Shown here one piece after another: positions 27,801 to 47,640 of a DNA stretch of 64,000 bases. The DNA lies in assembly GCF_964275005.1 (NCBI RefSeq), contig NC_092686.1, positions 17,932,547-17,996,546 on the forward strand, written 5' to 3'. Source of the DNA: Diadema setosum. Its lineage: Eukaryota > Echinodermata > Echinoidea > Diadematoida > Diadematidae. Position 1 is the first letter of the stretch. Every line of letters starts with the position of its first letter. The notes beneath the pieces are model-generated. The model had not been told where the DNA came from. It ran no database searches and was given only the letters and a program-made list of their open reading frames with translations. The position numbers and the translations under genes were made by a program.

Positions 27801-29552
27801 TATAATTTCACAACTGTTTTATTTTATTTCTCATTATGATGAAACTTTGATCTTTCTGTTCATCTGATTTTATTCTCTTTGGTATACATGTACATGAACA
27901 TTTATATCATTTGCCTTTGTAATAAGTAAAGTGACAAACACTGATGGAAAGGACAAAAACACAAGAACAAAATAAGATGATAAAAACCTAGGCTTAATAT
28001 TTGTAACTGAACAAAAACATGCGATACTGTTTTGTGTACAAACATTAAAATGAGCACAAGTTTGCCAATACAATAGTTTAATCACTTAAAAGAAAATGAC
28101 ATTTCTCTTGTCTGGACCCAAATCAAGCTTTCAATGATGTATGTACTCATTAAAATATTTTTATAAATGCTGACAGAACTAAAATGTATTGCAGATAGAC
28201 CATAAGGTAAAAAATGAATGTAGCTGACATGTACTACATTATTCCTTGAACTTGTCAAAAGACCTATTCGTCACCATAAACTGACAAAAAGGAAAGTTAT
28301 GTTTGAACATATCAGGTCATGTGGTTTCTGTGTTTATGGGTTGCAACATTTCTGTTAGCCTTGTGAACTTCATAAACATTTAAAACCATTACTTAAAGGT
28401 CCTGTTTACCTTTGGGAACAGTGATTTAAACAATTTTCAAGATATGACATTTAATGCATCTATTATGTGTAGGTCTGTTGTACCACAAAACATCCCATCA
28501 TATAACATCTTTGTGATAAAGCCTAAAATATAAGGAGATATCTGTATTTTTTTCAATAAACCGCAACTGTAGACGGTTTAGTCTGGAAACGAAAATTTTT
28601 TATTATGACTATTGTTCATATTTTGTATATTTTAAAATACTCAACATTGATTTTACCAATTCAAATTTTTACAGTGGTTGTTTCTATCCCTAACTCACAT
28701 TTTAGAACAATTTTAAACCATTAATGCTGGGTTTTTGCTTCATCTGCAAAAGGTAAATTATGCCTTTAAATGACCATAGAACAACATGCATGGCACCATG
28801 ATATCAAAGCACTTATACCGTATGGCAATTACAAATAATTCCCCTCTCATTCATTTTGATGATGTAATGAAACAAGCCATTGGGTAACCTTTACAGAATG
28901 TATCTTAGTGTAAGCAGTATTGAATTTCATTATGCAACACGTACAATTGTAAGCTTTCAATTCTGTGTTCTGATAAAAGCTGTGATCACACAATTCATAT
29001 TTTTCCTAACATGTTTTTTTTTGTTGCTGTCATTTTTGTCTTGAACTATTTTTGCGCATCCATACTTTGGACAAGAAACCAAGTTAACAGGATCATTAAT
29101 CTAACTTGCCTATAGATATATATATATATATATGTACTCATGATAATGTTAGCCTTCTCAATGTCTTACATTTCTTTCCTATCTGTCTGAAAATGTCATC
29201 GTTATTACCCCAGAATAGAATGGATGAAAGTTCAGCAATATTGCACCAATATGATCATAGTCATTATAACAAATTCTGAGATTTGGGTCATGATCAGGCT
29301 CACATCTGTTTGATTAATTGTTCTCTATGCAAAAAAATGTCAAAAATTGTTTATTACAATTAGCTTCGAAAAGCTTAACTGCAAATGTGTCAAGATTTGA
29401 CACGAGGTCAACCTTGTACTCACTAAGCACACACTTTCATGTATACTTTGTATCATGCTTTCAGCCTCCTGATTTTAGTATTATATTATTATTATTATTA
29501 TTATTATTATTATCATTATTACTATTATTATTATCTTTATTATTATTACTAT

Positions 29553-29599
<47 letters not shown>

Positions 29600-32500
29600 T
29601 TAACATTATCATTATCATTATTATTATTACTTGGTTCTAGTGTATCCACAAACAAGGCAACTAACCAGCAATTCTCTTAGTAACATTCATGAGAGAATCC
29701 TGAATCCTGAAATCCTTTACAAGAGTGATGTGATGCCATCTCCTGCTGGCTAGAGATGACTCCATGGCAGATTTCATACAAACCATTTTTCATTCTCTGG
29801 CTACATTGTATACTACCATATCAAAATAAATGAATAGCATTTATTTGTACTTGGTCTGTTAGAAACAGCATCGATTTGTTGTACTTACCCTGTTGCTGCT
29901 CTCCCCCTAATGCTAGTAGTCAGCAAACAGTTTCACAATAACATCAAAATTATCTGTGCCAAACAAAGGGAAAACCATCTCCCAGGCAGGAAGTGTCAAA
30001 ATCTGTTGGCTTGCATCCTTTACAGGAAAGTGGCTGGTCCTGTATTCAAGACTTTGTCACCCCACTACTGGAGCATGCTTCCGCACAGACCATTTACACT
30101 CATGTTGCTTGTCTTCACTAAATTGCACTTGAAATGTAAACAGTGGTCTACAAGCCATAGAAAGCGGATTTAGTTCACATTATCACAGTGTAATGTCGAG
30201 AGAGATGTCCTGAAGCTTAGTGGGGAAATCTAAAAACCCAAACCCTTCTTCCTCAAATCAGTATTTTGAGTATTCTTTACTACTACAGAAAGTTTAACAC
30301 ATCTCCAGAAAACTCTGTGAAGTTCATCAAACAGCTAAGCTCCAGAAGCATAGGATAATGAATGAATTAATGAATAAAAATTTATTATCCAACTTGAATA
30401 CTTGATTCACCCTTAAATGCAGGAAAAAAAAAATGACAATAGCACAACTGTTAACCCTGTGAGGATGGACTGATTTTGCTACAACATGCATTTCCCATAG
30501 ACACCTGCCCGAGTATATTCAGGACTCACCCTCAATGGGTTAATCAAGGTCAATGATGAGAACTACACGTAGATGTATAGCACCACAAAAGTTTGTTAAT
30601 TCTTGTTTGAAATTATATTACTATAATTCAAATATAAAAGTTGACTGAACATCACACCTTTTCTTTCATACATTGGACCCAAGTCATCTGGGAAGATTTC
30701 TAAATTACACTAAATTCAGTGTGTCGAATGCGTGTATTTTGGGGATAGGGCTTGAAGAGGGTTCTTGTATTCATATTTAAATCCCTGTATTTTAGCATGT
30801 GCTTTGACAAATGCTTTGATAATCACATTTCTTAGCACTACATTGTTGGAACAGCATGTAGTGCTCGGAAATAATGTTTACATGATGGAAAATGCTTTGA
30901 AATGGTGCATAGAACATGACCAAATACAAAATGACCAGAAATATCTTGGAATATCATTTGTACCACTTGACCGAGGTTTATCTATATGGCAGTAGCCTGA
31001 AGTTCATGTTACTTGAATATAAAGGGCACACCTCACTTTCAATCAGAACATGTGGGTCTACCTTAACCCGTTTAGGACGGTTTGATTTTGCTACAACATG
31101 TATTTCCCGTAGACACCTGCCCGAATATACTCGGGACTCGTCCTCAACGGGTTAACACAGACCCTATGGATGTCTCAGCGTACGGTGTGAGTTCTGTCTA
31201 AAACAATATTGGGTACTATAAAATGAGGTATTGTCGCATGGACTTTAACTTCGTGAATTTTGCGAGCCAAGATTTGCAAAATTGCAATGCATGCAAAAGT
31301 TCTTGTTTACACTATATGCAATGACTTTTAGAGGCAACTCCTGAAAATTTTGTGAGCTGCGAAAAAGGCCATCAGCTCCATTTTGCAGCGCTGCCAACAT
31401 TGGAAACTAGTTGAGAGTGAGACTCCCATAGGCCAATGCTATAATTTAGGAGTCAAAATGAGTAAGATCAATAGAAATGCATGCAAATGAAATAAAGTTT
31501 TAGAGTGAGAAAGGACCAAAATGAGTGAGTCTCACTCTCAATGAGTGAGAGTTGGCAGCCCTGATTTTGCGAAAATTTCATGCAAGAAAAAATATCGTTT
31601 TACAATATACAGTAAGTGTACTATCATAATGTATGTGATGTACAAAGTGTAGTCTTCTTCAGATCAATCAATCTGTGTCAACATGATCTGTAAGTTGGTG
31701 CAACTTGTGTGAAATATTCAATTCCCATAAAATTTACTTAGGGTACCGGTACTTTAATACACAGCTTGTGACTGACATTTGAAACACTAAACAATCAGTC
31801 ACAATTGACATGTCGACTGTTGCAACATCTGTCATGACATACTGACACTGGTAGGCAAAACTGTACAGCATGAGTTTCATTGCAGTGGCATCCTTCACTT
31901 AAATCCAGACAGGGCTACCACATTTCAAAGAATTTTCTAAACTTAGAAAATTCTTGTATAAAATGTGTGATGTCTTACATTGTGTACCTTCCAAAGGAGT
32001 GAAAACATACAATTACCTGCTTTAAAAAAAACAACAACAACAGCAATAGAACTCTAGTCACTACTTACTATACCATTACCAAACAACAATAGCTACCAGT
32101 AATGTGTGCCATTCAATATTGACAATAATGCCCAGCACAAAATGTATACGGTACTATTGATCTATGTAAGCCTTTTTTTTTTCTTTTTTTTTTTAAATGT
32201 CCATGAAAGTTCAGAGCTTCCAAGAAGGTTGTGTAGATAACAATGTGTGGCAAATTTACTACTTTGTCAGTTTTAGGCCTATCTATGATATGGAATGGGC
32301 AGGTTAGTCCCAAACAGCAACGTAACACGTTAGACATGTTAGAAGAAAAATGTGATTTTGGAACTTAGAGAGTAATTTTATAGCAAGACACAGACTAGTA
32401 AAAGTTTACTTGAAATGAAAGATCTAACATAGTTTAAGTTAGAGTTATTGTTACTCCTAATGCTAGATCGGTGTTTTTAGTCATATTAGAACTTGTCACG

Positions 32501-33238
32501 AAGGAAAAATATACTTGTGTAGACACTAGACTAGTAATAGTAGTATAATGAGTGAATTATTTAATGTGGTAGGCCTAAGTAGCGTGTGGGTCTAGTAGGA
32601 ACCGTTGTGTGCGTGTGTATGAAATTAGAACACTTCTCGGAGTTAAGTTCTCCATGATTTCTATAATAGATCCTTTGTTTTTTTTATTAAGTGGAGAGTG
32701 TCACTGAAACTTTGTTCGTAGGTTGTATCTACTACTGAACAGATTCATCAGGCATTTACATGGTATGGTGAGCATTCAACGTTTTGATTCCTCTCTTTTT
32801 TTTTTTTTTGGTGGTGGTCTGCTTACAAAAACATAAATTTGTTGAACCTATTCAAAAAAATCCAGATCAGTGGGTCGTGTCGGGCTTAATTACCCTAGAG
32901 GCCTAACGGCTAAGATAAAACTTGACCATCTTTGTTTTATCAATTTACTGTGGCATGGACAACAGCGGAAACTACAACCAGGCCAGGGAGGCACGCGTGA
33001 GCGTAGCGTAGCTAGCCGAGGGCCGCAAGCCGCTGCCTGGCTGGCAAGGCACCAATGATGCCAGCAAGCCAGTTCAGCGGAGATAAACCACGGGATGTCT
33101 GCACCGGCGAAGATCCCATACTCAACGGAGGCAAAAATAGCTGAGCGCAATCTGCTCCTTCCAAGCAGCACTCTTACCTTTTATTCTCGTTTCTAGCTCT
33201 TGCTGAATTAGCCTCTCTTGCTTCTTGTCCGTCGTCAT
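1961..33238 (-). CDS. SRGAP: srGAP (Slit-Robo Rho GTPase-activating protein), coding exons 1-3, gene runs off the left edge
   Basis: The joined coding sequence is complement(1961-2129, 7952-8135, 33178-33238), 414 nt and 138 residues. It matches the start of the F-BAR domain of vertebrate SRGAP1-3. Clear shared blocks are IRxxLxEQxKxLD near residue 22, QDYFRQRSEIELQY near 50, DLEKL near 65, CWNLLL near 93 and HTTLS near 107. Family members bend membranes as F-BAR dimers and switch off Rac/Cdc42 through a RhoGAP domain, downstream of Robo receptors. The rest of the F-BAR, RhoGAP and SH3 parts must lie left of position 1. Splice phases join cleanly: 1, then 2, then 0. The gene is divergent from FAM72. 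One invertebrate gene usually corresponds to the vertebrate SRGAP1-3 set, so no paralogue number is given. Confidence 0.93.
2700..3630 (-). repeat. Degenerate copy of the GGTCA-rich repeat family also found at 42740-43806
   Basis: On the minus strand this stretch repeats GGTCAAAGGTCA-like words separated by feeding phrases about 170 nt apart, as in the better copy in FAM72 intron 1. Its right end, near 3589-3630, carries a diverged form of the terminal sequence TGCCTCxGGCGACAC. The (GTCC)n run of the other copy is reduced here to a GGACAGAC-type tract near 3545-3575. The left boundary is uncertain. Relative to 42740-43806 it lies in the opposite orientation. Confidence 0.6.
5297..5679. mobile_element. 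TTAA-flanked MITE, family 1
   Basis: The ends are inverted: TTTAAAGGGACTGTACAG at the left and CTGTGCAGTCCCTTTAAA at the right, each beginning with a TTAA that can be read as the target duplication. The centre is a second inverted repeat around ATATCTCAGCCATTTGAAA and its complement. No ORF. TTAA targets are typical of piggyBac-type transposases, so it is probably a non-autonomous piggyBac-like element. Related copies lie at 33659-34070, 41700-41872 (half) and 53735-54146. Confidence 0.8.
5690..5883 (+). repeat. Probable LINE 3' end with (TGAATC)n tail
   Basis: AT-rich sequence ends in AACAATAAAAAATGAAATC and then about three TGAATC units. This is the usual look of a 5'-truncated LINE 3' end. 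No coding part remains, so the family is unknown. Confidence 0.45.
7952..8135 (-). CDS. SRGAP: srGAP coding exon 2 (F-BAR, first helices)
   Basis: This 184-nt exon has acceptor TTTTCCAG (complement of 8136-8143) and donor GTAAGTATTGG (complement of 7941-7951). It encodes residues 21 to 82 with heptad-like, highly charged helix sequence. The stretch from QDYFRQRSEIEL to DLEKL is the clearest match to vertebrate SRGAP F-BAR sequence. It ends two bases into a Gln codon that exon 3 completes. An open frame runs upstream past the acceptor in the genomic sequence, but that part is intron. Confidence 0.95.
9797..9831. repeat. (CAA)n microsatellite
   Basis: Eleven to twelve perfect CAA units after a short A run. 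Confidence 0.95.
11575..11775. repeat. Diverged MITE, same family as 31226-31615
   Basis: It shares words such as GCATGCGAAAGTTCTTG, a CACTATRTGCA phrase, TGTCAGCTCCA and CAAAAAAAATTCTTG-like sequence with the copy at 31226-31615, in the same order. Ends are worn, so boundaries are approximate. Confidence 0.6.
12362..12729. mobile_element. TTAA-flanked MITE, family 2, copy 1
   Basis: TTAA at both ends, with TIRs TTAAAGGCATTATTTACC and GGTAAACAAGACCTTTAA. No ORF. Inner sequence matches the copy at 28393-28769 in inverted orientation, including a GATATCTCC...TATA...AGGCTTTAT stretch. Confidence 0.8.
13290..13430. mobile_element. Short MITE with CATTTCATGAA ends
   Basis: About 140 bp. The left end GGGGAGCATTTCATGAAGC pairs with the right end GCGTTTCATGAAATACCCCC. 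It has an inner GACAAATTTGTC palindrome. No ORF. Confidence 0.75.
15490..17085. mobile_element. 1.6 kb TTAA-flanked element containing a 1 kb palindrome
   Basis: TTAA flanks both ends, with TIRs AGGTAGGGAATACC and, inverted, AGGTAGGGAGTCCC. Inside, from about 16012 to 17056, the two halves are long inverted repeats. One end block reads TTTTGGTACCTC and its complement, then CTCATGTCTTAGTAATCATG, then GACCAGCAG, then CTCTCCCAAGGTCC. The arms meet near 16490-16520. No transposase frame: open frames here (for example 16383-16685) read through the palindrome. Probably a non-autonomous piggyBac-like element with a foldback inside. Confidence 0.8.
17426..17482. repeat. Compound microsatellite (GAGT)n-(GT)n
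   Basis: About eight GAGT units pass directly into about eleven GT units. Confidence 0.95.
17993..18455. mobile_element. MITE with GTTACACA ends
   Basis: The left end GGTTACACACGAGAGAAAAT and the right end GACCATGTGTAACTGC are inverted, followed inward by AATTCGT and GAATCATCATT in both arms. Internal GAATTCGAATTC-like words and TTACACACG repeats add further symmetry. No ORF. Exact ends uncertain by a few bases. Confidence 0.65.
20797..21358. mobile_element. TTAA-flanked MITE, family 3, well preserved
   Basis: Both ends carry TTAAAGGACAAGTTCACC in inverted orientation, and the match continues for about 100 bp with few differences, so the copy looks young. No ORF. The inner part is AT-rich with a second symmetric stretch (GACATCAT...CTCATCCAGCGG and its complement). 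Confidence 0.88.
21870..22110. other. GC-rich single-copy block in srGAP intron 1
   Basis: This stretch is clearly richer in G+C and CpG than its flanks, has no terminal repeats, does not recur elsewhere in the window, and has no good coding frame. It could be a conserved regulatory element or an eroded repeat. Confidence 0.35.
22716..23022. mobile_element. MITE with ATACCCCTTTCA ends
   Basis: The left end TATACCCCTTTCACATTAG and the right end ACATGAAAGGGGTATTA are inverted. About 307 bp and no ORF. A lone half-end, CCCCTTTCACTTTACATGAG, lies near 22452. Confidence 0.7.
23763..23839. mobile_element. Very short TTAA-flanked element, family 4, copy 1
   Basis: TTAA at each end with the right TIR CCTCAATGGGTTAA. 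It shares GGGCAGGTGTCTATGGGAAA and CATGTTGTAG with the copies at 30451 and 31063, in the opposite orientation. Confidence 0.75.
25313..25864. mobile_element. GC-rich MITE, copy 1 of a pair
   Basis: 552 bp bounded by GACCCCGTTTACAGTGCGGG and the inverted CGCACTGTAAACGGGGTC. The outer parts are very rich in GGCCGCGGC-like words (GGCTCGGCCGCGGC) and form many alternative hairpins. The middle (ACAAAACCACCTTAAGCTAT and neighbours) is ordinary sequence shared with copy 2. Motif GTTTACA...TGTAAAC recurs inside. No transposase. Superfamily not certain. Confidence 0.85.
26073..26622. mobile_element. GC-rich MITE, copy 2 of a pair, inverted
   Basis: 550 bp with the same GACCCCGTTTACAGTG end and GTAAACGGGGTC end. 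Internal unique parts (TTTCGCTATT, GGTGGTTTTGTCCTGCAAAG, CTTTGCCGAACGGCGAC) run in the opposite direction to copy 1. Only 208 bp separate the two copies. Confidence 0.85.
28393..28769. mobile_element. TTAA-flanked MITE, family 2, copy 2
   Basis: TTAA flanks and TIRs TTAAAGGTCCTGTTTACC and GGTAAATTATGCCTTTAA. Inverted relative to the copy at 12362-12729. No ORF. Confidence 0.8.
29480..29630. repeat. (TTA)n-(GTA)n compound microsatellite
   Basis: About 60 bp of ATT units is followed by about 50 bp of AGT units and a few imperfect ATT units. Long open frames across it are artefacts of the repeat. Confidence 0.95.
30451..30543. mobile_element. Very short TTAA-flanked element, family 4, copy 2
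   Basis: 93 bp from TTAACCCTGTGAGGATGG to CACCCTCAATGGGTTAA. It contains ACACCTGCCCGAGTATATTC, shared with copy 3. Confidence 0.8.
31063..31155. mobile_element. Very short TTAA-flanked element, family 4, copy 3
   Basis: 93 bp from TTAACCCGTTTAGGACGG to CGTCCTCAACGGGTTAA. This is the best-preserved copy. The centre CCCGAATATACTCGGG is itself nearly palindromic. Confidence 0.85.
31226..31615. mobile_element. Diverged MITE interrupted by a second element
   Basis: Related to 11575-11775: shared TGCATGCAAAAGTTCTTG, CATCAGCTCCA and AAAATTTCATGCAAGAAAAA. It is split at 31386 by the element listed next. Outer ends are not clearly defined. Confidence 0.6.
31386..31563. mobile_element. hAT-like MITE nested in a diverged MITE
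   Basis: 178 bp with ends CAGCGCTGCCAAC and GTTGGCAGCCCTG. The six flanking bases ATTTTG are repeated on both sides, part of a possible 8-bp target duplication. CAG...CTG ends and such a duplication fit the hAT superfamily. The inner arms repeat GAGAGTGAGACTC-type words. Confidence 0.75.
33178..33238 (-). CDS. SRGAP: srGAP coding exon 1
   Basis: This exon holds the start codon (complement of 33236-33238), 20 full codons and the first base of a split Asp codon. The encoded start is MTTDKKQERLIQQELETRIK, a charged helix matching the short lead-in of vertebrate srGAP before EIR. An in-frame TAG lies 18 nt upstream of the ATG, and A at -3 gives a good start context, so this ATG is the likely start. 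The donor reads GTAAGAG at 33171-33177. The phase-1 junction with exon 2 restores DIRLHLSEQ. Confidence 0.9.
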
Positions 33239-33420
33239 CTTGATGAATATTCTCTAGTTCTCCCTGGTCAAATATAAAGATTACCTACAAACTCTCGTGA
33301 GATTAAAAATGTGTAACAAATATTCAAAGTTTCTAAGTTTTCACGAGTACAATAGCAGTCGCCATCTTGCAGTGGTCCTAAAGTTCCTTCTTACTTCCGG
33401 GGTCAGTAATTGTGAACTAC
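33239..33420 (-). promoter_or_regulatory. SRGAP: srGAP leader and core promoter with YY1-like and ETS-like sites
   Basis: Read on the minus strand, an ETS-type site CCGGAAGT (33393-33400) is followed about 25 bp downstream by CAAGATGGCGAC (33358-33369), which fits the YY1 consensus AAGATGGCG. This arrangement is common at TATA-less animal promoters, where YY1 sites sit at or just after the start of transcription. The transcript would then begin near 33370, leaving a leader of about 130 nt. No TATA box is evident at the expected place. Confidence 0.6.
33333..33365 (-). other. Short upstream ORF in the srGAP leader
   Basis: The ATG inside the YY1-like site opens a 10-codon frame, MATAIVLVKT, that ends in TAG about 95 nt before the main start. 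If transcription begins upstream of it, ribosomes would meet this frame first and reinitiation or leaky scanning would be needed. Confidence 0.4.
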
Positions 33421-33658
33421 TGTGAGTACGAGTATGAGTACCCTCTCCGCGATCTTTTTTTTTTCGGCGTCTTGATCAACTCTGTGTCCGTACGCGTTGC
33501 ATTACACACACCTCGCGGCGGACTCTCAAATTCGTTTCCACAAGCCGAGCGATGAGATGATGGCGTGCTTTGCTGGTAACGAATTACGCGGATGGCTTCC
33601 CCTGGAGAAACAAGCAATGTCTGCCGAGTGATATCACACAATAAAAATAGAATTGTGG

Positions 33659-34070
33659 AAAGGGATCGTATAGTTTTGGCAAACTTCAGGTTTCTTACAT
33701 TTTTGGTGAGATAATGAGAAACTTTTTAAAAAATATGAAAGAACATGTAATTCCAAGATGAATTCAACGTTTATTTGAAGAAAATTAGTTTTGAAATGGC
33801 TGAGATATCAACAACAAAAAAAAGAAAAAAAAAAGAAGAAAAAAAAGAGCAATCCTAAAGGTCTGACCCACCTTTTATTACGATCGCTTTGTTTAACTTT
33901 GTTTTTGGATGTCTCGGCCATTCCAAAACCGATTTTCATTATAGGGCTAGATTTTGAATTCCTCCTAGAATGCTCTGTTATATGTATTTCATAAGTTGTT
34001 GTTGTTGTTTTTTTTTTTTTTTTTGGTTATCTTGCAAAAAGTTAAAAGCCCAAACGAGATGGGATCCCTT
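33659..34070. mobile_element. MITE of family 1, just upstream of the srGAP promoter
   Basis: The left end AAAGGGATCGTATAGTTTTGG trimmed pairs with the right end CAAACGAGATGGGATCCCTT. It shares TTTTGAAATGGCTGAGATAT and the reverse (GTCTCGGCCATTCCAAAACC) with 5297-5679 and 53735-54146. An A-rich expansion follows the first block. It lies about 290 bp upstream of the proposed transcription start. Confidence 0.7.
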
Positions 34071-34428
34071 CGCTGGATAAAGTAATATCACATGGACGAA
34101 CTGAACGTAGGAGGTTCATCAAAGTCAGAGAGAAAGGTATAAATTGTTATAACTTATATAAACAAGAGGACATTTCGAGAAAGTGAGAAAGAGATAAAAC
34201 ATTGCTATGTGGAATTTGCATTTGTGTTTAGTTGTGTTTGTATTTGTAGGTGCAGTTACGCATAATATATATGATTATTAGAATATATAATCAACAAAAC
34301 CTGTGTGTGTGTGTGTGTGAGTGTGTGATGAGTCTGAATGCAATAAGAATCACATATTATACGAGAGATCTCTTAGTGGATCACCTAATTAAATAATCAT
34401 GTGGTAGATTTTGGGGTTTTTTGGGTGC

Positions 34429-34579
34429 TGTTCGTTATTCCGAAGGTTCGCTATTCCGAAGGTTCGTTATTCCGAAGGGTCGTTATTCCGGAGATTCGTT
34501 AATCCGAAAATGAAATTCGGAATAACGAATCTTCGGACTAAAGAGCCTTCGGAATAACGAACCTTCGGTATAACGAGCT
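34429..34579. mobile_element. Palindromic element built of TTCGTTATTCCGAAGG units
   Basis: Four to five direct units of roughly 16 bp in the left half face inverted units (CCTTCGGAATAACGAA) in the right half, so the whole 150 bp can fold back. Related to 39137-40037. Confidence 0.75.
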
Positions 34580-34856
34580 GTGACCAGATATTTAGTGCTT
34601 GCTCATTTCGATGTACACCGGATGAGCAGATTTAGCACGCAATGTGCATTCTATAATGATACACAATGATTAGCATTTAGACCGGCGTCTACGGCGTATA
34701 ATGGATTGGTACCAGAAACAAACAAACAAACAAACAAATAGCGCAAACAACAACTATAGTGCCGTCCGATCACAACGTATAGGCCTTGCAGTAACTATAT
34801 GGGGGGCAGGGGGAGGAGTATATGCATGCGAAGTCATAAATTACTGTGGAAAATCA

Positions 34857-35228
34857 CCAGGTCCGTAACTATAAAACTATAAGGGGGCTTCAGGGGTTCG
34901 GCGGACACCCCCCCCCCCCCTCCCCCCGTTTGCCAGCAGCAAAAAGAAAGTTAAAGAAATGAAAAAAAAAAAAAAACATGAGCAGCGGAACCCCCTTTAA
35001 TTTTCGGTGAAGAAACCAAGAACCATCTTTGTGAGGCAATCATTGTGGTACCAGAACCTTTTTTTTTTTTTTTTTTTTTTTTTTGCTTGTCAGCGGATTA
35101 AACCCGGAAGTGGCAACTTTGATTATTTATTTTTTCGCGCCCCCAGCAATCTCGAACATAAACTTGAACTAAAAGGTCCACTTTTTCTAATTCCGAACCG
35201 CCCCATACAAATCCTAGTTACGGCCTGA
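34857..35228. mobile_element. MITE with CAGGxCCGTAACTA ends
   Basis: The left end CAGGTCCGTAACTATA and the right end CTAGTTACGGCCTG are inverted. The five bases ATCAC are repeated outside both ends. C-rich, A-rich and T-rich runs lie inside. hAT-like from its ends, but not certain. Confidence 0.6.
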
Positions 35229-35867
35229 TCACATGAATTATTTATTGCTTTAGTCTGAGTTAAGAGCTGAAACATAGATATCAATATTACAGTCAATGCG
35301 ATGAGCTCCACTAATTCGCATTTATATTGATCAATAACAAGTAAATAAAGTCTTGTATTGTTTTTATGTATGGAGCTTGTGTGTGAATGGAGATGAACCT
35401 TAATCTGATACCTGTTCTTATAATTATTATATCGTAGGCCCTATACTTTGAAACAAACAACAAACTGGCACTGGATATATAAACCTGACAATCATGGTGT
35501 ATTCATCCCAAGCAAAAGTCGCGGCCTAACTATGTTGTTTTACGGTAACAATATTATTCATCACTCACTTCTTCATATCATCCAGCATGGTATAAGGATT
35601 GCAACATGGATAAGACAAATCAACTTTGTTTAACTTTTTCAAGTTTAATCAAGCGCTGGACAATAAGAAGCTTCATGACATTTTCGTGGGACTTTTTTCG
35701 AACATTACTGTAAGTTGTGCATATCAATACTGAAATATTGAAAACATTGAAACCATTGTCATGATGCATTCAAATAATATCATCTGCAGATAATGAAAAG
35801 CACACTCTTATCAGCACAGCTTTGCAAAGCGATAGCTATACTCCGACTCCGAGCCACTTTCTCGATC

Positions 35868-37092
35868 CCCAGCTAACATTTACACGTTTTCTGAACGTTC
35901 TTGAAACGCTCCAAGTTCGTTTTTTGGACATTTGTCAAAACGTTTTCAGAACGTCTTTTTTCGGAAGGTTTTCGACGTATTTAAAACGTTTCAGATGGAC
36001 GTTATAAAAACGTTTTTAAACGTTTAAAAACCAATAAAAAAAAAAACCTTTCGGAATTTTTTAAGGACCTGCAGAAAACCTTTTGGACGTTATAGACGTC
36101 AGTAAAACCTTTTCAGAATATTCAAAACGTTCTGTGGATGTTCTGCGGACGTCCAGAAAACCTTTGAAAACCGTCTAGAACGTTTAAAAAACGTTTTAAG
36201 AACGTTAGTCTTATGACCCGTTCCAGAACGTTTAGAGAATCTTTCATATCCGTCTATTGAACATCCAGAAAACCTTTTAAGAACGTCTAATGTTTATTTT
36301 TTTATATAGGGAATTTAAAAGAAAATCATATGAGATTATACAGGCACATTCTGGGATCAATGTACCCTAATCCTAATCCTATTCAATCCTATCCTAACCT
36401 GTTTCTAATGTCCTACCATTTACGACATGCATGCTATTCCCAATAATTGATGAATCTGTATCACATACTTTTATATACCAGCAAAATGTTGTAATGCATG
36501 AAGACATGGTTACTAAAATTAGATCACACACATAGGCCTATTTTAACATCAAGGCTACCTCTTTATAACACAATTTGAAATTGTGAATAACTGAACAATA
36601 ACGTAGGTATAAAAGTTTATTTTCAACACAGAAAATTTGAACCCAGTACAAATCTTTAGATTTCAATGTCTTTTATCTATTTCCACTACTTGTAGTTTTC
36701 AAATCTTAGATTTTCTTATTTGAATATTCATAAATACGCATGAATATTCATGATAAAGAAACCAATGACGAACACACACGGACCAAATAAAAACGTTTTT
36801 TTAAACGTTCATTAAAGACGAAATCGACGTAGCAGACCTAATAAAACGTTTTGTGGACGTTTATAAGGGACGAAGACGTTGCAGACATAATAAAAATGTT
36901 TTGTAACGTCCATTGACGTTTTTAAAACGTTTTCAAAAAAAACCCTGTGCTTTGCAGTACAAAATGCTAAGTCCCAACTTTGACCTTGTATGTACGTTTT
37001 AAAAACGTCCATTTTATACGAAGACGTACGGAACCTATAAAAAAAAAAAAAACGTTTAGGAAACGTTCTGAAAACGCTATGTGTTTGCTGGG
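35868..37092. mobile_element. ACGTT-rich 1.2 kb element with CCCAGC ends
   Basis: The ends CCCCAGCTAACATTTACACG and GTGTTTGCTGGG are inverted. About 430 bp at the left and 310 bp at the right consist of degenerate repeats of GAACGTTT, AAAACGTTTT and GGACGT words. The centre (36310-36770) is plain AT-rich sequence. Open frames across the arms, rich in Phe and Arg, are by-products of the repeat. No transposase. Confidence 0.75.
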
Positions 37093-37339
37093 TCATCCTT
37101 GTTCCAATTCCTCAAAACAAGCTTGCAGCTTGAGTCAAGCCATGTTCTTTTATGCGGTTTTTTTTTTTTTTTCCGGTCTATCCTGTCACGTTGTCTCTCA
37201 AACAACACAATCGGACTCGAGATCCATTCTCGCTACGAAAACAAAACAAAAATAAAAACAAACAAAAAATACATGAGGGAATTCCCCGAATTAGGTTATT
37301 ATTCCGTAACGAGATTGATGATTGCACATTCCTCTTTTC

Positions 37340-37386
<47 letters not shown>
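37340..37386. repeat. (TG)n microsatellite
   Basis: About 23 perfect TG units. Confidence 0.97.
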
Positions 37387-37389
<3 letters not shown>

Positions 37390-39220
37390 TCGAATGCATA
37401 CATTATTGTCAAAGAGGGAGTAACATGGCACCATTATGACAAACTGTTCATTTGATGTTTTCTTGATTTATCCCGTTTATAATTTTCACCATTATGAAAT
37501 ATTCCCAGACATTATTGATCAAAAACCTGCATTTTTTTTTTTAACTAGGCCTATACACAAAGATAAACACAATCATTTTCCAAGTAAAGCCCTGTTGTTA
37601 ATTATACGTCAGTTTGACAAAAGTCACCTCTATTGCGGCTTATGGCAATCAATTTCCGTCATGCACTTATGGACATATTCGCAAAGTTTTAGATGTAATA
37701 GTCGCCATCCATATAAGCAAACTGACAATCAAGTAAAAATAATATCAATAATGTGATTTTCATGAAAATGAACTTTTTTAATAACTGTCCCCGAAACGTA
37801 TAGTTTTGTCCTGTTTAAAATTAGTGAAAGACACTATCTGATGTGGAGCTTTTCATCATCTGGAGACTGGAATACGTCACACACGTATTTGAAAGAAATA
37901 TTTCCTTCAAGAGAGAATTTATTGTTCCGAATTTTATAGGGACATTACACGTGACAACAATACCATTTCCTGTATGATAGCATATGACTTTTTAGAGCAG
38001 AAGTGAACGTTGTTCTATGAGAAAAAGAAAATCAACGAATTTTACTTTCAGTGGCACCAATATACGGCGATATACGACTTACTAACTTGAGCTGGCAGTG
38101 GAATGCAGTGGAATGCAGTTTTGTCTAATGACAAAAGAAAAAAAAAATATGAAAGCAGGATTGGATATCACAGTTAATACTCTTCAGCACTCTTCAAAGT
38201 CCGTGTCAGCCGTGCACACGAGATACTGTAAGCTCCCGCTGGCTCTGCACACGACTGTTCTTCCCCACTTTTGACTCACAGAAAAAGTAGGATATTGTCT
38301 GTCATCTTATCATTATCAATTTCAAAGGTAAGATATGCAGATAATAAGAGAAAATTGTTACAATATTAATAATTTCATACTTCAATATGTGCGTCATATT
38401 TTGAATATATACGGTAAAGTTTGACAATATTGTATAACGTATATAGCTATAAATCTATACCATTAACTGTCAAATTTCAATAGAACATTTTCATTATACT
38501 GTTGGAATAGGATGAAATTGAAGGAGGATTCGAACAAATCTCACGATAGCGTATAGCTTGCAGAACGACTATTACAAATCTGGTTATCAAACTATTCACG
38601 AAGAAAAACAGAATTACTGCTATTTGCGTTTAAGTTGATTAAGATCGTCAGGAAGTTATACGATGGAAGAATGCACTTGGAATATTGGTATACATTGTAA
38701 AACATGCGATGTTTTCTGCTGTCATGCAAATAGCCCCTATCACTTGATAAAGAGTTCCATCTCTCGCTGTCTTTACATTATTGCAAGGTTAATATATAGT
38801 CTGGACACTTTACATGAGGATTGAAAAGACCACTTCCCGTTTGTTTTATTGTTTTAATGGTTAGTCCGTTTTGAGTGAAATAATAAAACATTGATGCTTA
38901 AACTTTTAAAGCTTTAACCAAAAAAACAAATCGAAATCGGGAATTTTTCACATCTTAAACTAATTATAAATATTTGGTTGTCTCGACGTTTCTGCTTCTA
39001 TCATCGTGTAGGAGGTGCGAAAAAAAAATGGTCTCTCCCGTCCCAATACTTAACTTCATCTCTTCCCATAATGTCGCCCAAAAGGGCATACCACACAATA
39101 GGCCACAACATTTTTTTTTTTTTTTTTTTTAGAAATGTTCGTTAAACCGAAAATTCTGTATCCGAAAGTGGAAAAGGGTTATTGTTCTGAAGGTTTTGAA
39201 ATACAAAAATTCCGTATATA

Positions 39221-39505
39221 GGGGGCGCTGTGGCATAGACTCCCGCTAGTCGCTACCACTCCTGCAACCCAATCACGCTAAAATTAATCGGAGGACCCGA
39301 GTTCGATTCCCGCCCAGTGCTTAAATCCACGTCCTTGGACAAGATGTTTTTACTCACCATGTCCCTCTCGACCCAGGTGTATAAAATGAAAGATATGGGT
39401 AGTGGCAATGCTGGGGTAATAATATTAATGGCAGGGCCCTCTGGTAGAGCTGCAGCAGTGGCAACACTGAAGAGGCTACCCTGAATAAAAAAGACCTTAT
39501 CATTA
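39221..39505 (+). mobile_element. tRNA-headed SINE
   Basis: The head GGGGGCGCTGTGGCATAGAC contains an A-box-like TGGCATAGACT. A good B box, GAGTTCGATTCC, lies at 39299-39310. A conserved-looking body (CCTTGGACAAGATG, CCCTCTCGACCCAGGTGTA, GGCAGGGCCCTCTGG) follows, and it ends in a microsatellite-like ATAATA tail. This is the usual structure of a Pol III-transcribed SINE. The head does not fold as a functional tRNA. Confidence 0.8.
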
Positions 39506-39601
39506 TAATAATAGTAATAACAATAATAATAATGATAATGATAATGATGATAATAATAATGATAATGATAATAATAATAACTTTTATTATTATTATTATT
39601 A

Positions 39602-39657
<56 letters not shown>
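39506..39657. repeat. (AAT)n then (TTA)n inverted microsatellite
   Basis: AAT/ATG-type units change at about 39580 to TTA units, so the tract is self-complementary and can form a long hairpin. Confidence 0.9.
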
Positions 39658-40304
39658 TGTTCAGTTGTTTGTCAATCCGACAATAAAATATTATAGGGTG
39701 CGTTAATCCGAATAACGAATCCGAAGGTTCGTTATTCCGCAGGTTCGTTAATTCAAAAACTAAATAACGTTAGTTGATCCGAAGATGAAGACGAAAAAGA
39801 AGAAGGTGCATGTAAACCTTCGGAATTACGACACTTACTTTCGTTTTCGGATTAACGAACCTACGACATAATGAACCTTTTTCTTTTCTTTTCTTTTCTT
39901 TTTTCTTCTTATTCTTTCTTTTCATTTTCGGCCTTCATACATAAACATTTTTTCTTAATTTTTCAAATCAAAAGCCTTCGGAATAACGTATAAATACCTT
40001 CTACGTGTCTTTCCGAATTACAAACCTTTGGAGTAACACTAAGAAAGAAATCATTTGTATACCATAATTGGAAATGATTTATGTTTGTATGCCAATAGTT
40101 GAAATCAATAAAACATATAAAGAAAAAAAAAGAAATAAAAAAAAAATGTAAACGGATGTGAATGAGACCGAATTATTGAACCATACAAGGATAAAGAGGA
40201 AAATAGGCCCTTTTACAACCTCAGGGAATGTATAGAATGAGCAGAATTGGAATGTACTATAATTCATACAAATGCAGATACAGTAATAAACGCAAACAGA
40301 AGAT

Positions 40305-40407
40305 CCCGTCTTATAAAGACTTCAAATCAATCACAAGTCCCCAAATCAATCGCTTTCAAGAGATTTGTGTGTGATTGATTTCTATCACAGGTTTTTATAA
40401 GACAGGG
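40305..40407. mobile_element. 103-bp foldback MITE
   Basis: The left end CCCGTCTTATAAAGAC and the right end GTTTTTATAAGACAGGG are inverted. AATCAATCACA repeats inside in both orientations. Confidence 0.7.
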
Positions 40408-40599
40408 CATGAAAGCTAGGAAACAATTTATTAGTAGCAAAATTAGCATGCAAAGAAAATGGGATCAAATCTAATTTCTTTGCTCATTTTCCACTAAATA
40501 CTGCGATACGTAACAAAATCACAAAAACCAACGATAACGCTCAGTTATTTGTGAATCCATTTGTCTGATTTGACGAAACCATCACACCAAGGTGGGTGG

Positions 40600-41283
40600 A
40601 CTCATCGAATACGGTACAACTTGTTCTACAGTACGTGCACATTGCGGCCGTTGTTGCAAGTCGTCAATCGTCTTCGAGCTTCGAGTGTACTGTGCATGCG
40701 GAGCGTATCGGCACGCGCGTACGCTTGTACGTACGCCTGCTCGCGCGGACGCCCGATTCTGAGATGCGACGTGTTTGTTTACTTGTGGACATTTAAATCA
40801 CCTGATGGTTAACCGTCTGCTACCACGTTTTGCTGGGTTGCACTTATGTCCAGTTGGGGATAGAACTCTACTGTACTGGTCGAGCAGTTCCACGTTACAT
40901 CCAGCATTAGATATATATATTAGTTTTTTGCGGATCTCACGAACGAAGGGGTAAACACCTACAAATGTATAAAAAACGTCACATATTCGTCGAGTAACTG
41001 GTGATGGTGCGTGTTGCAAGTTGCGCTGCTTCCCATGCTTTTCACCACAGCAACATAGGAAGGCGAAAGGGGACGACTAGCTCTACTACTTGATCAGCAA
41101 GCGTTCGCGTTCGGTGTAACATGTTACGTGTGTAGCTCCATTCATTACTAGAGTCTACAGTTCAACGTCTCACAAGTAAAACCCACGGATTTACGGATAC
41201 AACGACACGAACAAGGCTACAACTCACAAGCTAACTTTTGACTAGTGGTGCTGAGAGGTTTCCCATCTTTTTGAGTGTCTATC
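40600..41283 (+). promoter_or_regulatory. FAM72: CpG-dense region upstream of FAM72
   Basis: From about 40640 to 40775 CpG is dense (GCGGCCG, GCACGCGCGTACGC, CTCGCGCGGACGC), unlike the surrounding AT-rich DNA. This fits a promoter-type island 0.5-0.6 kb before the FAM72 start codon. GCATGCGGAGCG resembles half of an NRF1 site. No clear TATA box, CHR or CDE cell-cycle element was found, so the transcription start is not fixed. Confidence 0.45.
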
Positions 41284-41426
41284 ATGCATTCAAGCTTCAA
41301 GAAAAAACCAGTCGTTTATCTCTTCTGTCGATACTGCAACTCGTGCATCTGCAAACGTGGAATGAAGGCGGTCTTGTTAGCCGACACAAACGTTGAGCTT
41401 TATTCAACAGATGCACCATGTTCAGG
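41284..41426 (+). CDS. FAM72: FAM72 exon 1 (coding part)
   Basis: Encodes residues 1-47 and two bases of codon 48. It holds the first CxxC pair (C15, C18) and the nearly invariant RGMKAVLLADT. Donor GTGAGTAG starts at 41427. Confidence 0.95.
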
Positions 41427-44400
41427 GTGAGTAGAGTGCAGTGGTTGCACGACTTGCAAGTTACATTTTCTAGGTTTTGTAGCAGGCCTATGTAGAAGAA
41501 CCCTTTTAATCTGACGACGACTTTTGCCTCCCCTGTGCCAGTACAAGCATGGCCCATGTAACGTTAGAACTATGATTGCCAAGTGTAAACCTAAATATCA
41601 TGAATATGCTCCATACACGTAAATTAACATTAAAAAATCGTGACTTCGTCATGACAACATAAATTTACAATATTACAACCGTGACAATTGTTTAATAAAG
41701 ATAGAACTTTGGATATCTTAGTCATTTCAAAGCAGATTTTTATCAAATAAACTTTCAATTCCTCTTAGAATTGTATGTTCTTGAATATTTCATAACATTT
41801 GTTGTCTAATTATCTCTCAAAAACTTAAAATCTGACTCGCCATCTCAACAAAAACTAGAGCAATCTCTAATGCACAATAATGTGGACATGCATACATTCA
41901 TACTAACTACATTATACACGCAGACAGAGGCTGCACCTCAATTCCTTCGCAGACGTTGTCATTTTTCGGTGTGGTTGTGCGACTCCTTCATGAATATCTT
42001 TATTAATCGTGGAAAACTAAAATACAAGGAATTATCGTAATCAATGATAATCATTCAATAATCGGTGTGCGATTTTTTATTTAATTACGTCAAAAACTCA
42101 CCAAAATCTGTGGCTGAAATCAAGTCTGTAAACGTCCTTATTGCTTCACTCCTCATCTGCGTGTTATTTGAATGGCACAACGTAGGTAATCGGAGAGCTA
42201 GAGGGTGCCTCTCCGACTACCTACGTTGTACGTTGTAGTGAATGCCATTCAAATAACATGTAAAATAAGTCTGTAAACGTCCTTATTGCTTCACTCCTCA
42301 TCTGCGTGTTATTTGAATGGCACAACGTAGGTAGTCGGAGAGCTAGAGGGTGCCTCTCCGACTACCTACGTTGTACGTTGTAGTGAATGCCATTCAAATA
42401 ACACGCAGATGAGGAGTGAAGCAATAAGGACGTTTACAGACCTGATTTCAGCCACAGATTTCGGTGAGTTTTTGACGTAATTAAACAAAAAAATCGCATA
42501 CCGATTATTGAATGATTATCATAGATTACGATAATTCCTTGTATTTTAGTTTTCCACGATTAATAAAGATATTCATGAAGGAGTCGCACAACCACACTGA
42601 AAAATGACAACGTCTGCGAGGGAATAGAGGTGCAGCCGCTGTCGCTTCGCGTGTAGCTAACATTCATACATTCTTCGTCTTCATGTTGAGCTTGCCTCCT
42701 TCTAGACAGAAAAATCCCTCTGTCCGCAGGAGTTTTTTTATGCCTCCGCCAACGAAGTGGCCGGAGGCATTATGTTTTCGGGTCGTCCGTCCGTCCGTCC
42801 GTACGTACGTACGTGTCCGTACGTACGTCCGTCCCGTTTTGTTTTTGTTGATATCTCAAGAACCGTGTGGTGGTTTTGCATCAAACTTGGTATGAGGGTA
42901 TATCCTGGGGGGATGATACTTTGTTTGGATTTTAGGGTCACGGGGTCAAAGGTGAAAGGTCACAGGTTATTTTGTGAAAAAAAGGTTGAAATTTCATGTT
43001 TTTCTCCATATCTCGCAAATGGTTCAAGGTATCTTCATGGAACTTAGTATATATACAAGGAGGTAGCGTACTAGGCTCGCCTAGTACCTCCTTGGTATAT
43101 ATGCATGTACCGATGGGCAGTGATTATCTAGGGAAGTTGGGAGTCATGGGTCAAAGGTCAGGGGGTCAAAGGTCAAGGTCAACTCCTCAAAATATCACTA
43201 CTTTCCTTATATTTATGCAATGCCTGAAGGATTTTTTTTAAAACTTGATATATGCATGTATAACCCAATATATATTCTGTGGGAAGTTTCTTGCCAAAAG
43301 GTCAAAGGTCAAAAGGTCAAAGGTCAAGTGAAAGTGCTAAATTGCACTTCTTCCTCCATATCTCAAAAGTAACTCAAGGTATTATCATGAAACTTACATA
43401 TTTATGCATGTTCTACCTAACAGTGATTCTCTTTGGAACTGTGAGGTCAAAGGTCAAAGGCCAGGTTTAGATAATACTATTTTACCATTTGATACTGAAA
43501 TTATACTTTTTCTCAATACCTTGAAAATTACTCAATGCATAAACTTATAAAAGGGTCAAAAGTCAAGTAAAAATCATCAGTTCCCCCAAATACCTGCACT
43601 CTGACGTTTTAATCATTTGTCCAATTGAACCTACTTCTACGAAAGTGAACATTCAGCACATTTGTGGCAAACCTGTCATTTTAATATTTTGCCAATTGTG
43701 TGAAACTGTCATCACACATTGTCAAGACATTGTGCTATAGACCTATTAGGAGAACCATGCATTATGGCGGAGGCATACACCAGTCGCCGTAGCGACATTT
43801 CTAGTTTAATCATTTTTTGACATTTACGGCTCTCCTTGAGAGAGCCGTAAACTATAAGGGGATACTGTGAAGCCAATAGCAGTCTCCGCAGAACATATCC
43901 CTGACAAGATACAGACCGATCTTTTGGTCAAGCCTCCATCAAACTTGACATGTCATGCAAATTTATCAACTGGTGTGTACAAGTAGTACTGTAGATAACC
44001 GCACCAGCGACCCCAACCCGTACCGAGTTACTGGTTACAACACCCCGCGCAGGGTTAGTGTGTAGACATTTACTGTGTATGTAACCACATAACCTGGGAG
44101 CAAAAGGGCATTGTATTTACATGGTGCAAGTACAAGTGTAAAAGCTGGCCTTGAGTTTCTGTGGCACAGAAGGCTTCCAGTGCTGGAGTGGTGACTGTGC
44201 TCTGCAGGAAGATAGGCTATGCTCTCGTAGTCCTGCAAATAATGACTGTCTGTGGTGTTCTGTCCTAGATCGATGAAGTGGGGTACACACATCAGTAGCC
44301 TTGATGTTCGAGAATGGATGGTTCTTGTGGACCCATCTGCTTCCTGGGATCCAACATAATGTTACTGTGTGTTTTGAAGTATATCCCAAGTTGTTTAGAA

Positions 44401-47400
44401 TGCAATCTTCTTTGCATTATTGAAGGGTCGGGAGTTACTTTAAATGCCTTCATTCAAGGTATCAATACACTGTAGCCCCATAATTCCACTTATGGCTGGA
44501 CTTGTGCTTTGTAGGCCATATCCTGTCTTATCAAATATCAGGTACTGTATTTGAAAATTATACATCTCCCTTGAGAGATACAGTGTACTATAATCAGGTC
44601 AGGGGAGTATGCACTTTAAAGATCTACCTTTGCCTTTGTGGGTCCCAAAGCAGTTCCTAGGAAAGGGAATAAAATGGTAGGCAGCAAAACTGAACAGAAC
44701 TTTGTTTATCTTTCAATTAATTCACAGGACAATCAGCGCTACAGGGCAGCCTTATTCAACAGGGAAGTGTGATTGCAAGATATCAGATACTGTGTGCAAT
44801 AAATGGTGAGTCAAGAAGAGTTTAATTTATCATACATTGTATCATGTCCATGGATGTAAAATTCACCCTGGCCTACTCCAGATGTACAGTGCTGGTACAT
44901 GTACATCATCTAATGATGTGCATGAAGAAAATCAAAAGAAAGTGTAAGTCATTTGTAAAAGAGAGTATTTGATGTGATAGACCAACAAAGAAGGAACAGG
45001 TCTGTTTTGATTCCAAGGTCAAGAACAAACACAAACCATATTCAGCTTATATATCATGATTGTGAATTCGCTCATTAAATACATTGTTCTCTTTCTTAAC
45101 TCGTAAGTCAGTTAGTGAAAAGAAGTCTTCAAAAAATAGATTTGCATTATTTCTGCACTGTAAGTGTAAGCAGGTCAGGATTTCTGTTGATCACAGGTCA
45201 ATATTCTCTACCTATATTCATTGTAGTTGTAAGTCTGTTAGTGGAATGCACTTTCACATGTAGTGTAAAGAAAGTTCATCATGCATGATTCTATTTTGTA
45301 TGGACACAAACATAATTTATAACAGTGAAATGCGATGTCACTTGTTTTCAAGTTGGCCAAATGATAAATGAAGTACAATCTACAACCAGAGTAGTAGGAG
45401 ATCAACAAAAATCAGACATGAAATAATGTGTAAAGAGGTTTTGAAGATTAAAAATTTCACATGATTTCACTTCAAAAGTTGCAGCTGATATCATCATCTC
45501 ACAAGTCTCCCATTGTCCAGTACACATACATTGTACCTCCTTTTTTGACATTATTTGAGAATCATGTAATACTCTTACCCCCTCCAAGAAAAATGTGATA
45601 CTTTGTCTCTCTCATATCACATTACTGCGGGGTGAAATAGCCTTCAGACGTGGTGACCTTTATTTTACTTCCTGAATTATTGACCAAAAACATCACCTTT
45701 CTAATCTGCCAGTTACACAGACCAATTGAAGAGTTTTTAGGTGATATCATTACCTGATGTAATATGGAGGTTGTACATGTAACCAATATCAGCATTTTAT
45801 GAAAACACATAAAACTCCCCGAATTTCAAAACTATCGTATTTTGCGTCCAGTCTTAAATTTGTACATTATATTTCTATGATTTCAATGACATAATATTTC
45901 AATTTTTAGAAGTGCCCAGACACACAATTGGAGGCCTCTGCAGTCTGCTTGCACACATTAGGGATGAGTTTAATAATTAGGGAGTTGAGGTTTGTGAATT
46001 GTGTATTTTGCATATACAATGGTTTTAAAAGTGACTGTGACCCCAGTGTGGAGCATGGCTCAACTTAGTGTCATTGACTGAATGGTAGAGCCAACAGGCT
46101 AAACAAAAAAAGTTCATCACATTTTCTTTTGAGACTGGAATTACATTTTTGAAATACTAAAAGAGGATAAAGCCTGTTCTGCAAAAAGGAAACAACAAAA
46201 ACAAAACAATTACTTGTGACTTTATTTTTATGTATTATTTCTGTGTCTCTCTCCTTTTCTTCTTCTTTTTTTTTTTTGTATCACCACTGAAACTATTTTA
46301 CAGTGGAAACAATGTAGGTTATTCCATCATGATTCCTTGTGTGCCATGCCTGCAATCTTGTAACAATGGACACTTATGGATCTTCAACAGTACTGCTGTG
46401 TGGGCAGAAGGCAAACTTGACAAAACAGGTAAAAACATCTATCCTGTACATGTAGGTGAATTCTCTCTGTAGTATGTCTTATGAAGTATTATTTTATTAC
46501 TTCCGTATTCCCGTCAGTAATTAAGTAAGATATGTATATATATACACAGTCAAACCTGTCTATAGCGGTCACCAAAGGGAGATGAAAAAAGTGGCCGTTA
46601 TAGACAAGTGGCCGCTATAGACAGGTTATCCAACTTTGTGTGCATAGCCTACATGTACATGTATATTGCACATATGTATGTGTGTAGGCCTACGTACATG
46701 TATGCACACGTGTGTTTCATGCATTGAACAATGCCGGTGATTATGAAATTGTTGCACAGTAGCATGTGTACAATTCTGAAGAAAGCTTAACACTAGTGCA
46801 TTGATATGACTCAATGAGTGATAACTGAAGCGGTGGCAATCACTGAACGTTGCCCAGGAATAATTGGCACAGTTACAAAGCAGCAAAACACGCTGAATTA
46901 TCTGCTCGGCTACGGCTTCATCGGGTCTTTGACCGCTATAGACAAATTAAAATCTAGCACAGGAAACAAAATTTGTACCTGCTATACACAGGTTCTTTAA
47001 CAGGGCTTTTCTCTCGGGGGGGGGGGGGGGGGATTTTTTTAGTGGCCGCTATAGACAGGTGGCCGCTAAGACAAGTTTGACTGTATATATATAATAGAGA
47101 GAGAGATATGTAAACTTTCATTGTGCTTGCATCATGGAAGAACTTAAATCACTATAACGGCTGGAAAATGCAGGCTATGGCTGTCATGTTAAGCATTGCT
47201 TCAAGAAATACTTGTAGTTGGCTCTATTTAATAGTGACATACAAAAATGCTGTGTAATCAGAAATGATGCTCCAGCTTGGAAAGTGTACATGTACATAGT
47301 TGAATTTGGTATGTATAAATGAGTTTATTAGTAGTGAGTAATTAGGGGAGTAAATCATGAAAATATTAACATATATAGCTGTTTGGTAGTGGTACAAAGG

Positions 47401-47640
47401 AATGCCATGATTCTTAAGAGTTTTGAATAGATAGAGCAAAAGATCAGTGTGACAAAAAAGGGAGATGGACTTGTCTTTTTTTTTTGTGCTTGTCTGTTGA
47501 ATCTCAGTCTCTCCATAATATCATTTTCCTTCACTGCAGGTTGTGATGTTCTAAGATGGGACAGCTTACCCGAGTGTCCAGAAGACAACAGCCAAGATTC
47601 AATTTATGCAGAGCTTGATGAAATTGAATGTGTGCGATGA
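41284..47640 (+). CDS. FAM72: FAM72 (UNG2-binding family), complete four-exon gene
   Basis: Joined coding sequence 41284-41426, 44728-44805, 46304-46428, 47540-47640: 447 nt, 148 residues against 149 in human FAM72A. Strong matches run the whole length: RGMKAVLLADT (25-35), STDAP, KCDCKI, CNKCGNNVGY (71-80), IPCVPCLQSCNNGHLWIF (84-101), LDKTG, W122, and the end EIECVR. CxxC pairs at 15/18, 71/74 and 86/89, plus C93 and H97, are kept, consistent with a zinc-bound fold. In mammals FAM72A binds nuclear uracil-DNA glycosylase UNG2 and promotes its loss, favouring error-prone repair. An in-frame TGA lies 12 nt before the ATG, fixing the start. Intron phases are 2, 2, 1. It is divergent from srGAP. 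Confidence 0.97.
41700..41872. repeat. Half copy of MITE family 1
   Basis: It matches the right halves of 53735-54146 and 5297-5679: GATATCTTAGTCATTTCAAA, ATCAAATAAACTTTCAATTC, CTCTTAGAATTGTATG. The left half is missing. Confidence 0.6.
41917..42653. mobile_element. Foldback element with duplicated hairpin centre
   Basis: The arms of about 270 bp (from CACGCAGACAGAGGCTGC rightwards, and its complement ending at 42653) are near-perfect inverted repeats. The centre contains a hairpin, CTCTCCGACTACCTACGTTG and its complement, flanked by CCATTCAAATAACA. A segment of about 140 bp with this hairpin is present twice in a row (about 42124-42262 and 42268-42406). No ORF. Confidence 0.8.
42740..43806 (+). 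mobile_element. Repeat with GGAGGCAT ends, (GTCC)n/(GTAC)n run and many GGTCA words
   Basis: It starts ATGCCTCCGCCAACGAAGTG, then GGAGGCATTATGTTTTCGGG and a GTCC/GTAC run at 42783-42836. Five or so loosely repeated modules of about 170 bp follow (CATATCTC...AAGGTATC.TCATG.AACTT), each with GGTCAAAGGTCA. It ends GCGGAGGCATACACCAGTC plus GCCGTAGCGACATTTCTAG. No protein-coding capacity is evident, and its superfamily is unknown to me. A worn copy lies at 2700-3630. Confidence 0.75.
43823..43851. repeat. Perfect 12-bp-arm hairpin
   Basis: TTTACGGCTCTC, a five-base loop, and the exact complement. It lies 16 bp after the end of the GGTCA-rich repeat. Confidence 0.85.
44728..44805 (+). CDS. FAM72: FAM72 exon 2
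   Basis: 78 nt with acceptor TAATTCACAG and donor GTGAGTCAAG. It encodes the end of codon 48 to the first two bases of codon 74: the variable TISATGQPYSTG part, then KCDCKISDTVCNK. Human FAM72A has RCYFTKICKCKLKDIACLK in the same place. The exon is too short to show as an open frame of its own. Confidence 0.93.
44806..46303 (+). other. FAM72: FAM72 intron 2
   Basis: 1.5 kb, phase 2. AT-rich unassigned sequence, with a T run at 46268-46277 close to the acceptor. No repeat family was recognised. Confidence 0.85.
46304..46428 (+). CDS. FAM72: FAM72 exon 3
   Basis: 125 nt with acceptor ACTATTTTACAG and donor GTAAAAAC. It completes C74 and encodes GNNVGYSIMIPC through LDKT: the core of the family, with IPCVPCLQSCNNGHLWIF. 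The donor lacks the usual G at +5. Confidence 0.95.
46429..47539 (+). other. FAM72: FAM72 intron 3
   Basis: 1.1 kb, phase 1. About half is the MITE at 46547-47083. The rest is unassigned, with a GA/AT simple tract near 47084-47108 and a T run at 47477-47486. Confidence 0.9.
46547..47083. mobile_element. MITE with CAGTCAAACCTGTCTATAGC ends
   Basis: Both ends begin CAGTCAAACYTGTCT in inverted orientation, with GTGGCCGCTATAGACA repeated inside each. TA follows the right end, and CA precedes the left end where TA would be expected. Ends and target fit pogo/Tigger-like or other TA-targeting transposons. No transposase. Confidence 0.8.
47540..47640 (+). CDS. FAM72: FAM72 exon 4 (last)
   Basis: 101 nt with acceptor TTCCTTCACTGCAG. 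It encodes residues 117-148 and TGA at 47638-47640. It carries W122 in VLRWDSLPE, matching human W125 in VLLWGNLPE, then an acidic stretch and the conserved end ECVR (ECIR in human). Confidence 0.96.

Follow-up and report, generated by a model that had tools for sequence, protein, structure and literature searches.

The stretch of DNA analysed here, 64,000 nucleotides long and referred to as the window (positions are counted from its first base), contains two divergent genes arranged head to head: the first part of a srGAP gene on the minus strand and a complete FAM72 gene on the plus strand, with start codons 8,046 bp apart. We propose, with a probability of roughly 0.8, that the linkage of srGAP and FAM72 is ancestral and predates the vertebrate genome duplications, and that the two genes are served by two separate promoters. 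The locus would then be the invertebrate counterpart of the divergent SRGAP2-FAM72A pair of vertebrates, made of one srGAP and one FAM72; the genes would be transcribed apart and would already have been neighbours in an ancestor that predates those duplications. The pair is built from the following elements:

33178..33238, minus strand: srGAP coding exon 1 (gene model), 20 codons plus 1 base, with a donor GT at 33177 and in frame into exon 2
7952..8135, minus strand: srGAP coding exon 2, start of the F-BAR domain (gene model and PDB match; Pfam FCH on the joined exons)
1961..2129, minus strand: srGAP coding exon 3, F-BAR continued, followed by a donor GT; later exons lie past the left window edge
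8136..33177, minus strand: srGAP intron 1, 25.0 kb, mostly CpG-depleted
33239..41283, no strand: gap between the start codons, 8,045 bp, CpG observed-to-expected ratio (o/e) 1.13, partly repeat-like
41284..41426, plus strand: FAM72 coding exon 1 (gene model)
44728..44805, plus strand: FAM72 coding exon 2 (gene model)
46304..46428, plus strand: FAM72 coding exon 3 (gene model)
47540..47640, plus strand: FAM72 coding exon 4, with the stop codon (gene model)

The FAM72 gene is complete, with four coding exons between 41284 and 47640 (+) and a product of 148 amino acids. This product matched Pfam PF14976 with an E-value of 1.5e-53 (181.3 bits, cut-off 27) and covered the profile end to end, residues 3-148 aligning with profile positions 2-145 of 145. 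It was identical to human FAM72A at 70 of 146 positions (47.9%). Because a PDB search with the full product returned no match at E-values up to 10, the assignment to FAM72 is based on Pfam and on the comparison with the human protein. Agglutinin, the PDB match obtained with exon 1 alone, was a chance match only (E 0.6), and none of the candidates among viral contigs (1 pattern match) and genome contigs (26) was a relative by tblastn.

The part of srGAP found in the window comprises three coding exons, running from 33238 down to 1961 (-), and encodes 138 amino acids. The RhoGAP and SH3 exons are expected beyond the left window edge, and the gene was identified from its N-terminal F-BAR part. 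The best PDB match of the product was human SRGAP2 (5i6j, E 1.1e-26; 5i6r, E 1.2e-26), in an alignment that includes the part encoded by exon 1, matched to SRGAP2 from residue 8 onward. The next F-BAR protein in PDB, formin-binding protein 1, followed at E 0.099, leaving SRGAP2 about 25 orders of magnitude ahead within that database. Judged by its sequence, the N-terminal F-BAR of the minus-strand gene is closest to srGAP among the F-BAR proteins in PDB. Pfam FCH was also matched (E 3.9e-12), an HSR row stayed below the Pfam cut-off (E 0.0017, 18.9 bits against 24.9), and 54 of 138 residues (39.1%) were identical to human SRGAP2. All five complete introns, three in FAM72 and two in srGAP, were of the GT-AG type and kept the reading frame. 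A preliminary description of this DNA had named both genes and placed their first exons at 33238-33178 and 41284-41426, 8.0 kb apart; these coordinates proved exact to the base, and the PF14976 and SRGAP2 matches bore out the gene names. Intron 1 of FAM72 additionally contains two 145-bp tandem copies at 42117-42403 that are 98% alike, each palindromic-looking by eye.

The same description had stated that no gene lies between srGAP and FAM72. In agreement with this, a six-frame Pfam scan of 33239-41283 found no family above cut-off; a single weak row, DUF6606 (E 0.026), reached 14.3 bits where 27 are required. Across the whole window, Rfam gave no match at gathering score and ARAGORN no tRNA. 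The Pfam scans of 41.3-49.0 kb were confined to the first two plus-strand frames, and those of 1-33.2 kb to the srGAP exons, the islands at 15901-18600 and 25101-26800 and the open reading frame at 10-1290. Part of the gap is repeat-like. It contains an inverted array of a 16-bp unit at 34430-34576, ATA/TTA runs at 39505-39657 and a dispersed repeat at 33684-33996, copies of which (70-71%) were found at 53763-54042 and 5644-5423. Two further stretches were discerned by eye: one at about 35.87-37.10 kb looks like a transposon and has short inverted matches of 14-20 nt, and one at about 39.22-39.49 kb resembles a short interspersed nuclear element, a reading to which ARAGORN and Rfam give no support.

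CpG content varies across the locus. The srGAP body had a CpG o/e of 0.42 and the gap one of 1.13; FAM72 stood at 0.55 overall and at 0.25-0.27 from 44.06 kb, and the DNA downstream of FAM72 at 0.71. The gap itself is AT-rich (GC 0.36), with a CpG o/e of about 1.1 across 8 kb, and lies between CpG-poor gene bodies. In a two-state model, depletion on the side of srGAP ran from 32,843 downward, beginning about 390 bp inside the ATG and interrupted by islands, and the depleted state of FAM72 ran from 44,059 to 47,866, ending 226 bp past the stop codon. The contrast persisted when simple repeats were masked (0.42 for the srGAP body, 1.10 for the gap, 0.27 for 44059-47640), and the gap minus its transposon-like stretch had a CpG o/e of 1.04. 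A single break placed at 32,500 gave a likelihood gain of 66.0, and none of 500 bin shuffles exceeded 45.5. By CpG o/e the gap ranked 788th of 55,955 same-size windows, and the best same-size window without overlap with the gap, at 47,864, reached 1.08.

In a sea star, passages of PMC12550476 report methylation of 48-50% for introns, 11.5-12% between genes and about 5% at promoters; for vertebrates they give 60-80% genome-wide. A CpG-depleted srGAP body and later FAM72, with an undepleted gap, form the mosaic expected of invertebrate gene-body methylation and argue against a vertebrate genome. This mosaic, together with identities of 47.9% and 39.1% to the human proteins, makes it very probable that the locus comes from an invertebrate, as the preliminary description had supposed; that this invertebrate is an echinoderm is rather likely. 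If the window were that of a vertebrate, for instance a lamprey, a hagfish or a cartilaginous fish, the pair would be nothing new. An early divergent vertebrate could indeed show low identity to human proteins, but the CpG mosaic is the invertebrate pattern, as in the sea star of PMC12550476, and the values for FAM72A and SRGAP2 also argue against a vertebrate source, which we regard as very improbable.

Passages of PMC7957592 describe SRGAP2 and FAM72 as a divergent 'master gene' whose two members lie 4 kb apart and attribute it to all 'notochord containing vertebrates', and the legend to figure 1 of this 2021 review says that the pair is not present in other species. According to a passage of PMC12672016 the pair is single-copy in other vertebrates, and an excerpt of PMC6579814 lists srgap2 and fam72a together on one bacterial artificial chromosome from sole. 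A FAM72A-like transcript is named in a snail in part of PMC4599737, and as far as that part goes a FAM72 gene therefore exists in a mollusc. The 'FAM72' of PMC3124438 is the name of a shrimp repeat and not the gene, and PMC3815023 mentions neither srGAP nor FAM72. No report of an invertebrate srGAP-FAM72 pair was found in the open-licence literature searched, mostly via listings or passages, and the remark in the preliminary description that the linkage is little discussed outside vertebrates holds within that literature. An invertebrate pair would contradict the legend of PMC7957592.

The locus resembles the vertebrate SRGAP2-FAM72A pair, and the human SRGAP2B/C/D-FAM72B/C/D copies, in its gene families, its head-to-head order and the absence of a recognised gene between them; FAM72 has four coding exons and 148 amino acids here, and passages of PMC7957592 give four exons and 149 amino acids for the human gene. 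It differs in having a single srGAP of pre-duplication divergence, 8.0 kb between the ATGs instead of the 4-kb intergenic region described in the same passages, a mosaic CpG pattern, and the lack of an E2F match in the upstream stretches tested, 700-800 bp for each gene. Collectively, the gene identities, the divergent order and the probable invertebrate source imply that the pair is older than the vertebrate duplications, as had been proposed in the preliminary description, and this one locus, which carries the claim, probably represents the vertebrate arrangement in an invertebrate and belongs with the ancient conserved neighbours. A chance joining of srGAP and FAM72, independent of vertebrates, would be compatible with a single locus, but an identical partnership in an identical divergent orientation would have to arise twice; by a rough reckoning, re-association with one particular neighbour, oriented in one particular way, might be expected in 1 in 1,000 to 1 in 50,000 cases, and we consider such a coincidence exceedingly improbable. 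Ancient conserved gene pairs (microsynteny) of animals were reportedly described by Irimia et al. in 2012. The present pair is like such microsynteny, and like the blocks described in passages of PMC8851819, in that unrelated genes are neighbours in vertebrates and in an invertebrate, and unlike those blocks in consisting of two genes and not of three or more.

A promoter of its own is probable for each gene, and the candidate segments are the following:

33361..33400, minus strand: srGAP promoter-like site, located 123-162 bp upstream of the ATG and made up of one match of the ETS type (33393-33400) and one of the YY1 type (33361-33368)
40481..42879, plus strand: CpG-rich segment over the FAM72 start (two-state CpG model), the upstream part of which is the presumed promoter region

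Ten motif classes were tested as consensus strings, and the whole window contained 6 ETS-type and 2 YY1-type matches. The ETS-type and YY1-type matches beside exon 1 suggest that srGAP has a promoter of its own there. The two promoters, at about 33.36-33.40 kb for srGAP and within about 40.5-41.28 kb for FAM72, would thus occupy the ends of one domain unmethylated in the germ line. Start codons 8 kb apart make a common core promoter unlikely. Bidirectional promoter pairs are defined by transcription starts within about 1 kb of each other. A shared bidirectional promoter that holds srGAP and FAM72 side by side, an idea put forward for the vertebrate 'master gene', would agree with the dual intergenic promoter described over the 4-kb vertebrate gap in passages of PMC7957592, and the gap found here is one CpG-rich domain. 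We nevertheless regard this as improbable, given the 8,046 bp between the ATGs, the promoter-like motifs by the own exon 1 of srGAP and the absence of any E2F, NF-Y, NRF1 or SP1 match within 700-800 bp upstream of either gene; E2F sites are predicted in the human gap in the same passages, and none was matched here in the tested upstream stretches.

As the force that has retained the pair, we lean by a narrow margin, and at somewhat under even odds, towards long-range regulatory interleaving, in which FAM72 would sit within the regulatory territory of srGAP, its 25-kb first intron included. The preliminary description had likewise suggested that shared regulatory DNA, or enhancers in srGAP introns acting on FAM72, may have kept the genes linked. 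In its gene layout, the locus can be likened to a genomic regulatory block with a bystander gene, a long-intron gene (srGAP) adjoining a small unrelated gene (FAM72). Passive survival of an ancestral pair, of the kind by which slow-evolving genomes keep many neighbours without selection, is almost as probable, because constraint and chance survival are not distinguishable from one locus. The gap has repeat-like DNA, and its sequence is therefore not tightly held; passages of PMC8851819 moreover report that ambulacrarians and lophotrochozoans have kept ancient blocks to a large extent, so that survival would not be unusual in those lineages. Vertebrates, in contrast, lost 84% of the bilaterian-ancestor blocks according to the same passages, yet kept the srGAP-FAM72 pair; the figure is not directly transferable to a pair because the blocks have three or more genes. 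It is doubtful that the pair is a regulatory unit in which shared DNA sets proliferation (FAM72) against cell-shape differentiation (srGAP) and which has stayed together since before this lineage and vertebrates split, or perhaps since early bilaterians; if it were, the human-specific copies would have inherited a very old switch and not a vertebrate brain invention.

Several observations weigh against ancestral linkage with two promoters. One locus was examined, and common ancestry is drawn from this window and from statements on vertebrates in papers. On the FAM72 side, 40500-41300 contained no E2F, NF-Y, NRF1, SP1, ETS, YY1, cAMP response element or E-box words, and had only TTTAAA and TATAAA, both common in the window. 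The CpG mosaic also has exceptions: 51.8-64.0 kb is CpG-poor (o/e 0.40) though no gene was recognised there (six-frame Pfam of 49001-64000, none above cut-off), FAM72 intron 1 is mostly CpG-rich over its initial 2.6 kb, 47.9-51.8 kb forms a further CpG-rich stretch (o/e 1.63), and CpG-rich islands occur within the CpG-poor srGAP intron 1 at 16159-17005, 17950-18493 and 25309-26633, where six-frame scans of 15901-18600 and 25101-26800 found no Pfam family above cut-off.

The SRGAP2-FAM72 pair has been discussed as a brain 'master gene' of notochord animals, with extra copies that are human-specific. Should an invertebrate have the pair, the origin of the pair would be unrelated to the vertebrate brain, and the published statement of its absence would be wrong. 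It would also present a case of two unrelated genes remaining adjacent through the vertebrate genome duplications, in which only one srGAP copy kept its FAM72 neighbour.

Some features outside the exons of the pair were also recorded. The islands in srGAP intron 1 may be young insertions or unmethylated regulatory DNA, and the CpG-poor 51795-64000 resembles a methylated gene body, perhaps of an unrecognised transcription unit. Beginning just after FAM72, 47890-51690 carries repeated CTCGTTATAACCG-type words that by eye look like DNA transposon ends, and 2.4 tandem copies of a 448-bp unit (49561-50660) lie inside the very CpG-rich 47.9-51.8 kb. The palindrome TAGGCCTA occurred 12 times in the whole window, both strands counted, against 0.65 expected (18.6 times over); it is presumably common in sea urchin DNA. 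A 426-residue open frame at 10-1290 (+), inside srGAP intron 3, matched the reverse transcriptase family RVT_1 (E 2.1e-28) and marks an element of the long interspersed nuclear element (LINE) type.

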